Positions 1,954 to 8,192 of a stretch of DNA of 8,192 nt are shown piece after piece. The translations under genes and the position numbers were made by a program. The stretch spans positions 1 through 8,192 of the forward strand of contig JAUXHZ010000037.1 of NCBI GenBank assembly GCA_030621255.1. The letters run 5' to 3'. The DNA comes from Candidatus Latescibacterota bacterium (GTDB taxonomy: Bacteria > Krumholzibacteriota > Krumholzibacteriia > Krumholzibacteriales > WJIX01). The notes beneath the pieces were generated by a model. The model had not been told where the DNA came from, searched no databases, and saw only the letters and a list, made by a program, of their open reading frames with translations. How positions within the stretch are numbered: the first letter of the stretch is position 1; every line of letters starts with the position of its first letter.

Positions 1954-2442
1954 GTGAAAAATATCAAGAAGATTATCCTTGCCGGGGCCATTATTTTTAT
2001 GTTGACCGGCTGTGAGAATGCCGGGTCCTCTGGTGAATGGCTTTCAATTGAAAGGGGATTAGCCCTTGCCGAAAAAGAAAACAAGACTGTCGTAATAGAT
2101 TTTTACACTTCTTGGTGTAAATGGTGTAAGGTAATGGAAGAGCGTACCTTTTCCGAGGATAATGTTGCGAAATACTTAAGAAAAAACTATGTCTGCATTA
2201 GAGTTAACGCGGAGGATAAAAATAATACATTCAAGTACAGGGATAATGAATACAGTCCCTTTTCTCTGGCTCGGAAGCTTGGAGTCCGGGGATATCCCTC
2301 ACTGGCATATCTGGAAAGTGACGGGGAACTGATTCAGGTTGTACCGGGATTTATACCTCCGGAGACTTATATTAAAGTATTAAAATATTTCCGGGAGGGG
2401 CATTATAAAAAGAATATATCTCTGAAAAGCTTTATAGAGTAG
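1954..2442 (+). CDS. Thioredoxin-fold lipoprotein with CKWC active site
   Basis: This 162-residue protein is probably an envelope thiol-disulfide reductant or isomerase. GTG 1954 is chosen because AAAGGGAG (1941-1948) sits five bases upstream and because the encoded N-terminus is a proper lipoprotein signal (MKNIKK, hydrophobic run, lipobox LTGC with lipidated Cys20). The mature part has the order of a thioredoxin_7/DsbD-C-terminal type fold. VVIDFYTSWCKWC holds the redox pair Cys55 and Cys58, followed by KVMEERTF, and the cis-proline loop is GYPS (Pro115). WCxWCKxME with a following TF is typical of that family rather than of classical thioredoxin. It lies 99 nt before a phosphofructokinase gene with no evident terminator between, so co-transcription is possible, but no functional link is obvious. 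It is the second thiol-redox lipoprotein in the window, beside the Sec-containing one at 6271-7488. The physiological partner is unknown. Confidence 0.85.
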   Translation: MKNIKKIILAGAIIFMLTGCENAGSSGEWLSIERGLALAEKENKTVVIDFYTSWCKWCKVMEERTFSEDNVAKYLRKNYVCIRVNAEDKNNTFKYRDNEYSPFSLARKLGVRGYPSLAYLESDGELIQVVPGFIPPETYIKVLKYFREGHYKKNISLKSFIE

Positions 2443-3671: not shown

Positions 3672-3690
3672 GCTAAATCATCAATGCGGG

Positions 3691-5062: not shown

Positions 5063-6178
5063 ATGGAAGTAAAACTATTGGATTTGATCCCGCAACATGA
5101 AAAAATTAAGGATGAGATTCACCGGGCCGTGGACCAGGTTTTTAACAGCCAGCAGTTTATACTAGGTCCTTCCGTAGACAGATTTGAAAAAAGTATGGAG
5201 AGCTATTACGGTGTTGAGCATGCTGTTGGAACCGCTTCGGGATCGGATGCAATACTTCTTTCTCTTATGGCCCTGGGTATAGGGCCCGGTGACGAAGTTA
5301 TAACCACTCCGTACACTTTTTTTTCCACGGTAAGTTCAATAGTGAGAGTTGGCGCCACTCCCGTTTTTGCCGATATAGATCCTCGGACATTTAATATTGA
5401 TCCGGAAAAAGCGGCTTCAGCTTTCTCGGAACGGACAAAAGCCGTGATTGTTGTTCACCTGTTCGGCCAGAGCGTTGAGATGGATCAGTTTACAGAGATT
5501 GCTGCTGAAAGAGGGGTGTTCATAGTTGAAGATGCGTGTCAGTCAATCGGGGCGCTTTATCATGGTAAGAGATGTGGAATGTTCGGTGATGTTGGGTGTT
5601 TTTCATTTTTCCCTTCAAAGAATCTTGGAGGCCCCGGTGACGGCGGAATGGTTATAACAGACAGCAGTGATATCGCGGACAGAATCAGAGCCCTTCGCAT
5701 GCACGGGGAAGAAGAGAAGTACAAGCACAAATATGTCGGGATAAACAGCAGGCTGGACGCTCTTCAGGCGGCTGTATTGGAAGTTAAGCTTCGATACCTT
5801 GAAGAATGGAACAGGGCTAGACGCCTAAACGCTTCACGGTATGAAAAGGCCTTTTCCGGCCTTCGGGGGATAACCCCTCCCTTTATCGAAGAGTATAACG
5901 AGAGTACATTTAACCAGTATGTTATTCGTACACCCCGGAGAGATGAGATGCGTGCATACCTTACCGATAAAGGGATAGGTACGGCGATTTACTACCCGGT
6001 GCCCCTTCATTGCCAGGAGTGTTTTTCATTTCTCGGATGGGAGAGGGGAAGACTGCCCGAATCGGAAAGGGCGGCTGATGAAACCCTTGCCCTCCCCGTT
6101 TATCCTGAACTGGGTATTCAGAAGCAGAATTATGTTATTAAAACAATTACGGAATTTCTTGATAAAAGGTCTCTGTAG
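5063..6178 (+). CDS. DegT/DnrJ/EryC1/StrS-family PLP-dependent sugar aminotransferase
   Basis: This 371-residue cytoplasmic enzyme would transfer an amino group, usually from glutamate, to a keto group of a nucleotide-activated sugar, feeding surface polysaccharide, glycoprotein or glycolipid synthesis. ATG 5063 is preceded by GGAGG five bases upstream. The family order is clear: FILGPSVDRFE (32-42), the PLP-phosphate region TASGSDAILL (57-66), TTPYTFFST (81-89), EDACQSIGA (156-164) with the PLP-ring Asp157, and FFPSKNLGG with the Schiff-base Lys186. RMHG (212-215) and YVGINSRLDALQAA (224-237) follow, then IYYPVPLHCQ (309-318) near the C-terminus. The length is normal. RMHG...KY.HK with NSRLDALQAA resembles WbpE/FdtB-like members, but substrate assignment within this family is unreliable, so no symbol is given. 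It is unusual to see it alone, with no glycosyltransferase or nucleotide-sugar enzyme in the window. Confidence 0.9.
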   Translation: MEVKLLDLIPQHEKIKDEIHRAVDQVFNSQQFILGPSVDRFEKSMESYYGVEHAVGTASGSDAILLSLMALGIGPGDEVITTPYTFFSTVSSIVRVGATPVFADIDPRTFNIDPEKAASAFSERTKAVIVVHLFGQSVEMDQFTEIAAERGVFIVEDACQSIGALYHGKRCGMFGDVGCFSFFPSKNLGGPGDGGMVITDSSDIADRIRALRMHGEEEKYKHKYVGINSRLDALQAAVLEVKLRYLEEWNRARRLNASRYEKAFSGLRGITPPFIEEYNESTFNQYVIRTPRRDEMRAYLTDKGIGTAIYYPVPLHCQECFSFLGWERGRLPESERAADETLALPVYPELGIQKQNYVIKTITEFLDKRSL

Positions 6179-6259
6179 AAACTTGGGTATCTCCTTGAAG
6201 AAGTCCAATATGCGGCAAGGATTATTCGAATGTGCGGATTAGTCATGAACGATTGGGAC

Positions 6260-6264
6260 AGGAG
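6260..6264 (+). promoter_or_regulatory. Ribosome binding site that fixes the selenoprotein start
   Basis: AGGAG lies six bases before ATG 6271, whose product starts directly with a lipoprotein signal. The frame is also open from a GTG at 6232, but that start has no site and would bury the signal peptide behind 13 mostly polar residues. Confidence 0.7.
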
Positions 6265-6270
6265 ACGGAA

Positions 6271-7488
6271 ATGATAAACAAAAAAAATGCCGGAGCTGTT
6301 GTGTTAATAATGATTCTTGTTTTTATGGGGTGTATGGGGGGAAAGGAAAAATCGGATCTTTATATTATGGAAGAGCTTGAGGCCGCTTCCTCAATAGAGG
6401 GTACAGCAAAGAGGATTGAACGGCTAAAGATATTTTTAAATAATCATCCGGAGCATATGTGCAGGGAATTTGCGTATAACAAGATTTTTGACACCCTCAC
6501 GGAGGATTCAGGGCAGTCGGGAAAAGCGATGGCATTCTTTGACGAAGTTATGGGAACAGAAGAAGATCCTGTTATCAGAGGGACTTTTTGCTATAAAAAA
6601 TTCACCTATTTATGGAGTGTTGACAGTACAGAGGCCATCGATTTTGCCGCAAGCCTTCTTGAGAGTGATGAAAAGGGCTTCCGACTCTTTGTCTATTTGG
6701 GTTTTGATCTGGGTTACAGAGGGAGAAACGAACTCGCGGGAGAAATGTTTAGAAAGGCTATCGATGTTGGGAATAGTTCATTTGAAAATTCTTTCGCCGG
6801 AATGCTCTACGGAGAATCCCTCAGCAAACAGGGGAAGGAAGATCTCGCCCTGGGACTATTAAAAAAGTCGGCGGACAACGTTTTTGCGGGAAAGCAGCTT
6901 GGGAAAATATTGTGGGAAAAAGGTGAAAGAAGGGGCGCGATAGAAGCCTATATTAATTTCGTCGCGGGGGTTCCGGGCGAACGCGGCGAAGTAAAGCTGG
7001 ACAGTCTTTACGCGATCGTATATCCGGACAATGCCGGTGAGCTTGACGAGAAAATTCTGGAGAGTAGGATCGGGCATAAGACATTATTGCACGGAAGCCG
7101 ATTTGTTGATACTGAGGGAAAATATTATAATCTATCTGATTATAAAGGCAAGAAATTGGTGATAAGCGCCTGGAGCCCAACCTGACCTCCCTGTATTGCG
7201 GAGTTGCCGCAATTGGAGAAACTGAAAAATATGGAGGATGAGCTCGGATTCAAATTATTCCTGATTAACATGAAGGGATATTTAAATAAAACAAGGGCAA
7301 TACTAAAAGAAAAGAATGTCACAATTCCGGTTCTCCTTGATTGCAAATCTTACTCACGCTGCGTTCTTCATGTAAATTATACTCCGACAACATTTATCAT
7401 TGATAAAGATGGAATTATTCGTTCAAGGCTTGTGGGAAACTGCGAAGGATTTAAGGAAATTGTGGAAGAGGTGATCGAACGGATCTAA
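6271..7488 (+). CDS. Selenocysteine-containing TlpA/redoxin-like lipoprotein with N-terminal helical (TPR-like) domain
   Basis: Read through the in-frame TGA at 7183-7185, this is one 405-residue protein. It starts with a lipoprotein signal (MINKK, hydrophobic run, FMGC with Cys21). About residues 30-260 are helical with TPR-like pairs such as LAGEMFRKAID and LALGLLKKSAD. The redoxin domain begins near 270 (RFVDTEGKYYNLSDYKGKK). ISAWSPT is followed by the TGA codon and PPCIAELPQLEKL. Compared with the family pattern FWATWCPPCRAEMP, the TGA takes the place of the first active-site Cys, giving Sec305-Pro-Pro-Cys308. After it the fold is complete: the cis-proline loop YTPTTFIIDKDGII (Pro372) and GNCEGF. 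Additional cysteines are Cys358, Cys364 and Cys391. The protein is probably an outer-membrane or periplasmic thiol oxidoreductase or peroxidase-like enzyme with a Sec-Cys pair. A hairpin fitting a SECIS element follows the TGA. It is 92 nt after the aminotransferase gene. A Cys-to-stop mutation is the alternative, but the intact downstream frame and the hairpin argue against it. Confidence 0.82.
7183..7185 (+). other. In-frame TGA read as selenocysteine (Sec305)
   Basis: The codon lies between ACC (Thr304) and CCT (Pro306) and aligns with the nucleophilic Cys of the CPPC motif of TlpA-like redoxins. The frame upstream (304 codons) and downstream (100 codons) is open and both sides encode halves of one domain. 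TGA is a normal stop for the phosphofructokinase gene at 3625-3627 and TGG encodes Trp, so a genome-wide TGA reassignment is unlikely. Confidence 0.8.
7186..7218 (+). promoter_or_regulatory. Bacterial SECIS element
   Basis: ATTGCGG (7195-7201) and CCGCAAT (7207-7213) form a perfect 7-bp stem around the loop AGTTG (7202-7206). A second short helix, CTCC (7187-7190) with GGAG (7215-7218), can extend the structure below an asymmetric internal loop. The apical loop starts 17 nt after the TGA and has a G at its second position. Known bacterial SECIS elements lie inside the coding region immediately after the UGA, with a small apical loop roughly 16-37 nt downstream and a G among its first two bases, bound by SelB. 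The hairpin is coding at the same time (for IAELPQ), as expected. Folding energy was not computed. Confidence 0.75.
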
Positions 7489-8192
7489 TGGCCCGCAGGA
7501 GAGTGGTGCGCGAGATTGCCCGGGTGAGAAACTGCTTTTATATTTGATTCAATTTCGTTTATTCTATTACGCCATTCCGGTTCAAGGCCTTTATCCTTTA
7601 ATTCATTCAGTATTGTTAAAGCGTATGAGCTATTGTTCATTTCCGAGCTGAGTAATTCCGCCATTGCAATTGAAGCCTTTATTGATAGAAGAGGCAGCGG
7701 GGAGTGTTTTTGAATATAGATGTATATATCATAGGCCTCATCATATCTTTCCTGGTTTACGAGCCATTTTCCGACCTTCAGCAGCAATTGAGAAGATGAA
7801 CACTGATCGGGGTTTTGTAAAATAAACTCTTTTGCCCAACTCGCGGCTTCATCATTTTTAGAACTCTGGAGGAGTTTTTTAAGTACGGGTTCGCCGGTTT
7901 TACGTGAGTCATCTTCAAGCCCGTTTTCTCTGTAAATCATTGCTATATCCCGCAGCAAAACAGTATCATCCGGATTTTCCTCGACAAGTTTTGAAAAGAG
8001 ACTTATTGCTCTTTCTGTGATTCCTTTCCGCATGAGTTCGCAAGCGTTATTGAAGCGAGGGTCTTTCAAAATGCCCGCGTCTATTTGTTTTTTGCGAACC
8101 TTTGTATGAAGGATATTTTTCTCAAATCCGGTCGCGCGGAAAATGAGAGCCGTTATTAAACCTGCCATATATCCGGCGATATGCGCGATGTA
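7485..8192 (-). CDS. Rhomboid-family intramembrane protease C-terminus fused to a TPR tail, 5' part beyond window
   Basis: The frame is open from the right edge to TAG at 7485-7487, 235 codons. The first residues visible, YIAHIAGYMAGLITALIF, match the last catalytic helix of rhomboid proteases: E. coli GlpG has AHIAGLAVGLAMAF there, with the catalytic His of the Ser-His dyad. A methionine at 8168 is internal to that helix and is not the true start. After the membrane helix the chain turns soluble and helical: NACELMRKGITERAISLFSK with LVEENPDDTVLLRDIAMIYR is a clear TPR unit, followed by further TPR-like pairs (ASWAKEFILQNPDQ, KWLVNQERYDEAYDIYI). The tail would be cytoplasmic or periplasmic depending on topology. 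Rhomboids cleave within membrane segments, and a TPR tail would serve substrate or partner binding. The serine-bearing helix lies outside the window. The stop overlaps that of the convergent selenoprotein gene by four bases. Confidence 0.8.
   Translation of the reverse strand, partial: YIAHIAGYMAGLITALIFRATGFEKNILHTKVRKKQIDAGILKDPRFNNACELMRKGITERAISLFSKLVEENPDDTVLLRDIAMIYRENGLEDDSRKTGEPVLKKLLQSSKNDEAASWAKEFILQNPDQCSSSQLLLKVGKWLVNQERYDEAYDIYIYIQKHSPLPLLSIKASIAMAELLSSEMNNSSYALTILNELKDKGLEPEWRNRINEIESNIKAVSHPGNLAHHSPAGH

Follow-up and report, generated by a model that had tools for sequence, protein, structure and literature searches.

The gene at positions 6271-7488 of an 8,192-nucleotide stretch of DNA from Candidatus Latescibacterota bacterium (GenBank assembly GCA_030621255.1, contig JAUXHZ010000037.1; hereafter the window) very probably encodes a selenoprotein, in which the in-frame UGA at 7183 is decoded as selenocysteine (Sec) with the help of a hairpin at 7195-7213. 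This reading is based on the codon, the frame, the hairpin, conservation, selection on both halves of the gene, and the presence of selA and selB in the genome. Within its assembly (1.64 Mb, 358 contigs, 80% complete) the window is contig 224; we refer to its genome as the source genome. The original prediction, made from the letters of the window, had read the gene as an undeclared selenoprotein, which is supported by the conserved UGA, the hairpin, the frame, a Cys homologue and selA together with selB. All its coordinates and distances (TGA, stem, loop, loop G and TTG) proved correct on the sequence.

Conservation of the UGA codon and of the frame beyond it

The TGA at 7183-7185 lies in frame with ATG 6271, with 304 codons before it and 100 sense codons after it, and the residues around codon 305 read VISAWSPT-UGA-PPCIAELPQLEKL. 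The read-through protein scored 64.2 bits against the PF08534 (redoxin) profile, for which the cut-off is 26.6, and an AlphaFold2 model of it (pLDDT 91.5) predicts that the UGA-bearing domain folds as ResA. The read-through protein was searched against 58 genomes including the source genome, 25 from its own order and 33 from elsewhere in the class. Orthologues were present in 21 of the 25 genomes of the order (the source genome and G001-G024) and were confined to it; three of them (G019, G021, G022) are incomplete, and the 17 full-length relatives share 39-91% identity with the source protein. Each orthologue contains exactly one internal stop, which is always TGA and always in the same column of the codon alignment, followed by 100 sense codons in 20 orthologues and 108 in one. 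TGA, hairpin and frame were found together in 21 of the 25 genomes, and their recurrence in 20 related genomes suggests that the UGA is likely read as selenocysteine. No copy with the TGA part was found in the other four genomes of the order, namely G001 (97% complete), G016 (89%), G023 (61%) and G018 (only a contig-end piece).

More distantly in the class, seven further proteins among the matches listed (G026, G030, G033, G034, G042, G047, G056) have a TlpA domain in which x-x-Cys follows a TGA. Many other TlpA paralogues of these genomes have no stop. The class loci L101-L105, L042 and L049 encode distant TlpA proteins with PT-UGA-x-x-Cys and a GUGG/CCAC-type hairpin 3' of the UGA. A search of the protein database found 22 relatives, one of which, P0007, is 408 residues long and has CPPC at the place of the UGA; this Cys homologue is 46% identical to the source protein over 93% of the query in the database search and 44% in the alignment. 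The proposal that the UGA occupies the first Cys position of a TlpA-type motif is upheld by P0007 and by the shared column in 21 of 21 orthologues, and the homologue alignment which had been suggested as a check gave both the Cys opposite the TGA and a conserved sequence beyond it.

Selection on the two halves of the gene was compared by NG86 in eight pairs, three of them among the source genome, G002 and G003. The dN/dS ratio was 0.064-0.217 after the TGA and 0.116-0.45 before it; in five pairs it was lower in the second half, and in the three among the source genome, G002 and G003 it was slightly higher there. Between the source genome and G003, dS was 0.99 before the TGA and 0.63 after it, with a dN/dS of 0.20 beyond the UGA. 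These sequence-derived ratios show purifying selection on the half of the gene that follows the TGA.

If the UGA were instead a true stop, the product would be a 304-residue lipoprotein, and 7204-7488 would be either a small gene of its own or a remnant in decay. Standard gene calling gives this picture, a stop at the TGA plus an open reading frame (ORF) from TTG 7204, as the original prediction had said; 21 of the 22 database relatives are only 284-329 residues long, and P0001 and P0006, the two of these that were read, end exactly at SPT just 5' of the TGA. The lack of selD in the source assembly, discussed below, points the same way. Against termination stand the low dN/dS after the TGA, below the value before it in five of eight pairs, the nearly constant number of codons that follow, and the full-length Cys homologue; synonymous codons in the hairpin are frozen as well, and termination would cost one domain its first catalytic position and everything after it. 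The TTG lies inside the hairpin loop and, as had been noted, is without a Shine-Dalgarno sequence of its own, since a GGAG abuts it directly and leaves no spacing. At this codon 8 of the 21 orthologues have TTT, GTT or TTA, and we rejected a separate gene starting there because the start codon is not conserved. A true stop is extremely unlikely.

A SECIS-type hairpin downstream of the UGA

The stem ATTGCGG (7195-7201) pairs perfectly with CCGCAAT (7207-7213) around the loop AGTTG (7202-7206), whose second base is G; counted from the first base after the TGA, the stem begins at base 10 and the loop at base 17. RNA folding of 7180-7230 gave -13.6 kcal/mol against -6.6 (sd 1.91) for shuffled sequences (z -3.66), and none of 200 shuffles was as stable. 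As described in the available text of a recent review (PMC13188914), the model of the bacterial selenocysteine insertion sequence (bSECIS) has a loop of 3-9 nt, a stem of 4-16 bp, a G in the first two loop bases, a distance of 16-37 nt from the UGA and a minimum free energy (MFE) of at most -7.5. The source hairpin falls within every one of these limits (7 bp, AGUUG, 16 nt, -8.3 kcal/mol), so that both the SECIS geometry and the folding check of the original prediction were borne out.

We aligned the hairpin region of 28 sequences, 27 of them distinct (alignment A1). All 28 agree with the model in stem, loop, loop G and spacing, with the register fixed from the alignment and a 3-base loop counted where A20 can pair with base 24; for the MFE, all 28 agree when a 45-nt window is folded, but 16 of 28 for the bare hairpin. 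Standard pairs fill 89.9% of the pair cells, although only 9 of 27 sequences form the outermost pair (13-31). Covariation was 0.334 compared to 0.145 after shuffling (reached in 0 of 500 shuffles) and at most 0.077 in slid controls. Distant copies retain the stem through paired changes, and the clearest two-sided change within the orthologues is in G004, from U-A to C-G at columns 15-29. A SECIS model built from A1 (R1) found, at E <= 0.05, a single site in the source genome and, across the other 26 genomes, 22 sites of the family, plus two extra weak matches in TlpA paralogues without a stop, in G007 (E 0.005) and G024 (E 0.044); this is no independent test because R1 contains these same sequences.

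Because the stem also encodes conserved residues, we examined the choice among synonymous codons. The four testable hairpin codons (+5, +6, +8 and +9) have a mean normalised codon entropy of 0.07, against 0.74 for 77 other conserved codons, and none of 100,000 random draws was as low. GCG, GAG and CCG occur in all 21 orthologues and CAA in 19 of the 20 with Gln; among the 77 comparison codons at least one, Phe at +22, is also invariant.

Selenocysteine machinery in the source genome and its relatives

The source genome contains selA (492.6 bits) and selB (308.1 bits), both over the cut-off. Elsewhere, selA was over the cut-off in 20 of 21 further genomes (in G003 it is split on two contigs), selB in 19 of 21, and tRNA-Sec in 22 of the 27 genomes searched, including G002 and G003, the close relatives that bear the gene. 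The tRNA-Sec scan scored 105 candidates per genome and 100 in the source genome, and ARAGORN gave the anticodon TCA for tRNA-Sec in the four genomes on which it was run (G001, G002, G003 and G023). Of the machinery that the original prediction proposed to look for in the source genome, selA and selB were recovered, but tRNA-Sec and selD did not come over the cut-off in this 80%-complete assembly.

Several observations weigh against selenocysteine decoding. The source selB is truncated by a contig end, and selB was not over the cut-off in G002 and G004. No tRNA-Sec over the cut-off was found in the source assembly, where the four best matches are tRNA-Ser, nor at E <= 1e-12 among the 105 candidates scored in each of G006, G012, G019 and G022, all of which carry the TGA gene. 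The congener G001 shows the reverse of the source genome's pattern, having tRNA-Sec, selA, selB and a Sec-selD but no such gene. For the hairpin, two of five covariation measures were not above shuffles (two-sided-change pairs 4 vs 3.3, further pair types 7 vs 7.7), and the two-sided stem changes lie mostly between the orthologues of the order and the seven distant proteins and so may reflect few events. The weakest point is selD: none was over the cut-off in the source genome, G002 or G003, the three exceptions among the 27 genomes, and in its place all three have a stub of about 36 codons.

The tRNA-Sec of the source genome probably lies just beyond an assembly gap, since contig C299 matches contig C200 of G002 only from position 3681, while the tRNA-Sec of G002 is at 2281-2378, that is, 1.3 kb beyond the start of C299. 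We also considered a tRNA-Sec adjoining selB and rejected it, as tblastn with the 478-residue source SelB (E 1e-10) found no match in 29 loci, most of which surround the tRNA-Sec and selD of relatives. Separately, the TGA gene, selA, selB and a TGA-bearing selD are all present in G006 (95% complete) and G012 (90%), whose tRNA-Sec may be odd or may have been missed by the scoring limit.

Alternatively, an unusual tRNA or near-cognate decoding could place Cys, Trp or Gly at the UGA. The lack of tRNA-Sec and selD over the cut-off in the source assembly would fit this, and the fold would work with Cys; however, SelB would call for a SECIS-type hairpin with frozen codons whereas plain read-through would not, selA and selB are kept, and G002 and G003 have a tRNA-Sec with a TCA anticodon. 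We give read-through without selenocysteine hardly any probability.

The missing selD

Selenophosphate synthetase is described as conserved in all selenoprotein-encoding genomes in the available part of PMC4561486. Among the 27 genomes searched, 24 have selD over the cut-off, and 16 of these have a copy with an in-frame TGA of its own. G001 has a full Sec-selD with a CAGU motif, flanked on one side by genes for a small ferredoxin-like protein and a peptidase of the M16 type and on the other by a QueH-like gene (names read from sequence). The peptidase and QueH-like genes are present in the source genome, G002 and G003 as well, where the selD stub was detected by tblastn in the first two and by alignment in G003. 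The stub retains the TGA and a long inverted repeat (-19 to -23 kcal/mol), with paired changes in G003; as a guess, it may now serve the upstream ferredoxin-like gene. Apart from the stub, G003 has two weak selD matches (58 and 54 bits, cut-off 125). The weak match in the source genome, on C41, was rejected, being a 147-residue piece whose best NCBIfam match is ThiL at 61 bits, also below the ThiL cut-off.

Our preferred answer is that the source genome, G002 and G003 may carry a second selD in unassembled DNA and would not have lost the trait. Such a gene may resemble that of the sister genome G004 (locus L118, 1785-4010), which encodes a NifS-like domain (read from sequence) fused to a Cys-type SelD in 741 residues; open frames of 739-831 residues holding a selD match occur in 9 of the 27 genomes. 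The chance that all three assemblies miss a second selD is about 0.5% (0.20 x 0.16 x 0.16) if gaps are independent, which gaps in related metagenome-assembled genomes are not.

Alternatively, this branch of the genus may be losing selenocysteine, with selD already gone and the gene, only recently affected, now yielding a 304-residue product. The similar stubs without the remaining gene in all three genomes, none with selD over the cut-off, are what such a loss would leave. But if the deletion were ancestral to the three, the frame, the UGA and the hairpin would have lasted for a dS of 0.63-0.99 (source genome to G003), with the dN/dS of 0.20 beyond the UGA, while selA and, in G002 and G003, tRNA-Sec were kept; moreover, each assembly lacks 16-20% of its genome, and a Cys selD fusion of the G004 type may lie there. 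Loss of the trait is very unlikely. A different possibility is that selenocysteine decoding outlived the deletion of selD, so that selA, selB, tRNA-Sec and the UGA gene persist on selenophosphate from an enzyme other than SelD, which we likewise consider improbable to a high degree.

Proposed function and features of the gene

With the UGA decoded as selenocysteine, SelA would charge tRNA-Sec with selenocysteine made from selenophosphate. SelB, bound to the loop of the hairpin (AGUUG), would bring the tRNA to the UGA, which lies 16 nt upstream, and translation would continue past the UGA to TAA 7486. We predict that the product is exported and lipid-anchored at Cys21, which we take to be the lipobox cysteine. 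The predicted active pair is Sec305-Pro-Pro-Cys308 in a thioredoxin domain of the TlpA/ResA type, where the TPT triplet presumably forms the cis-proline loop. The protein would reduce, or less likely form, disulfides of envelope proteins; Sec305 would attack the substrate, and the selenenylsulfide would be resolved by Cys308. The helical domain of the model, residues 29-266, may hold a partner; a profile search found no match to Pfam TPR in the source protein, and several database relatives carry the name 'tetratricopeptide repeat protein'.

Table 1. Coordinates of the predicted selenoprotein gene, its elements and the selD stubs (window positions unless a locus is named).
Feature	Position	Strand	Remarks
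Predicted selenoprotein gene	6271..7488	+	ATG 6271 to TAA 7486-7488; 405 residues with UGA as Sec; lipoprotein signal, helical repeat domain, TlpA/redoxin domain
AGGAG, Shine-Dalgarno-like	6260..6264	+	6 nt 5' of ATG 6271, from sequence
Cys21 codon, predicted lipid-modified Cys	6331..6333	+	FMGC here; LSGC, LPGC, PSC in relatives; invariant in 19/19 aligned proteins
All-helical (TPR-like) domain, residues 29-266	6355..7068	+	predicted by AlphaFold2 model
Predicted TlpA/ResA-like thioredoxin domain, residues 277-405	7099..7485	+	
UGA, predicted selenocysteine 305, first position of UxxC	7183..7185	+	TGA in same column in 21/21 orthologues
Cys308, second residue of UPPC pair	7192..7194	+	invariant 19/19
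Predicted bacterial SECIS hairpin	7195..7213	+	stem 7195-7201/7207-7213, loop AGUUG 7202-7206
TPT, presumed cis-proline loop of thioredoxin fold	7381..7389	+	T371 and P372 invariant 19/19
TTG ORF, 94 residues	7204..7488	+	possible standard-caller product; judged not a separate gene
selD stub (about 36 codons), L131	G000:C154 about 12469-12582	-	
selD stub (about 36 codons), L132	2145-2252		
selD stub (about 36 codons), L133	within 6590-7110		

No terminator-like sites were found in 6100-7700. Upstream of the gene, 1954-2442 (+) encodes a lipoprotein-like thioredoxin (Thioredoxin_2 / DsbH-like) whose motif is an ordinary CKWC. A redox operon was considered and rejected on comparison with seven other loci, because this Cys thioredoxin was matched only in the G002 locus; the upstream DegT aminotransferase recurs in four of the seven and the downstream opposite-strand TPR protein in four.

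Relation to known selenoproteins

Judged from sequence, our verdict is that an order related to Krumholzibacteriota has a family of redoxin-type UxxC selenoproteins that is mis-annotated. It would add a predicted envelope-anchored Sec oxidoreductase family, conserved across an order of uncultured bacteria. Its catalytic quarter is absent, judging by length, from 21 of the 22 database copies; the active domain of these proteins, several of which are named 'tetratricopeptide repeat protein', is overlooked for the reading of one codon. With the rest of the Sec trait kept, the selD stub also offers a testable case of whether Sec decoding can persist after loss of the usual selenophosphate synthetase.

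The family was not reported in the literature searched, which is weak evidence since coverage was partial: 'krumholz' and 'latesci' are absent from the main text of PMC13188914, and TlpA, redoxin and lipoprotein are not mentioned in PMC12013277 (deep-Sep). The nearest NCBIfam selenoprotein model, NF041054 (WAxxUGC_long), covers ResA-like selenoproteins in which, likewise, a ResA-like domain with Sec at the CxxC comes after an N-terminal extension, but the source protein scores 32.5 bits against a cut-off of 300 and has SPTUPPC instead of WAxxUGC, and is not a member. Against ResA (NF002854) it scores 58.1 bits, below the cut-off of 170. Compared to ResA, TlpA and CcmG (DsbE), the protein is predicted to have Sec in place of the first Cys, plus a lipoprotein-like helical N-terminal part of about 266 residues.

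The kind itself is known. In its available text, the 2026 review PMC13188914, which counts more than 110 prokaryotic families, lists UxxC redoxin, Prx-like and TlpA-type selenoproteins, and the available part of PMC9312934 lists a redoxin-family UxxC selenoprotein. As described there, the redoxin family, Prx-like thiol:disulfide oxidoreductase and thiol-disulfide isomerase-like proteins of PMC13188914 have in common with ours a PF08534/PF00578-type domain and Sec as the first residue of UxxC, and are mostly computational predictions. The lipoprotein signal and the long helical domain are absent from their descriptions, by which alone they were compared. We rate the proteins described here as a new family within this known kind; a listed redoxin-family representative may itself belong to the family.
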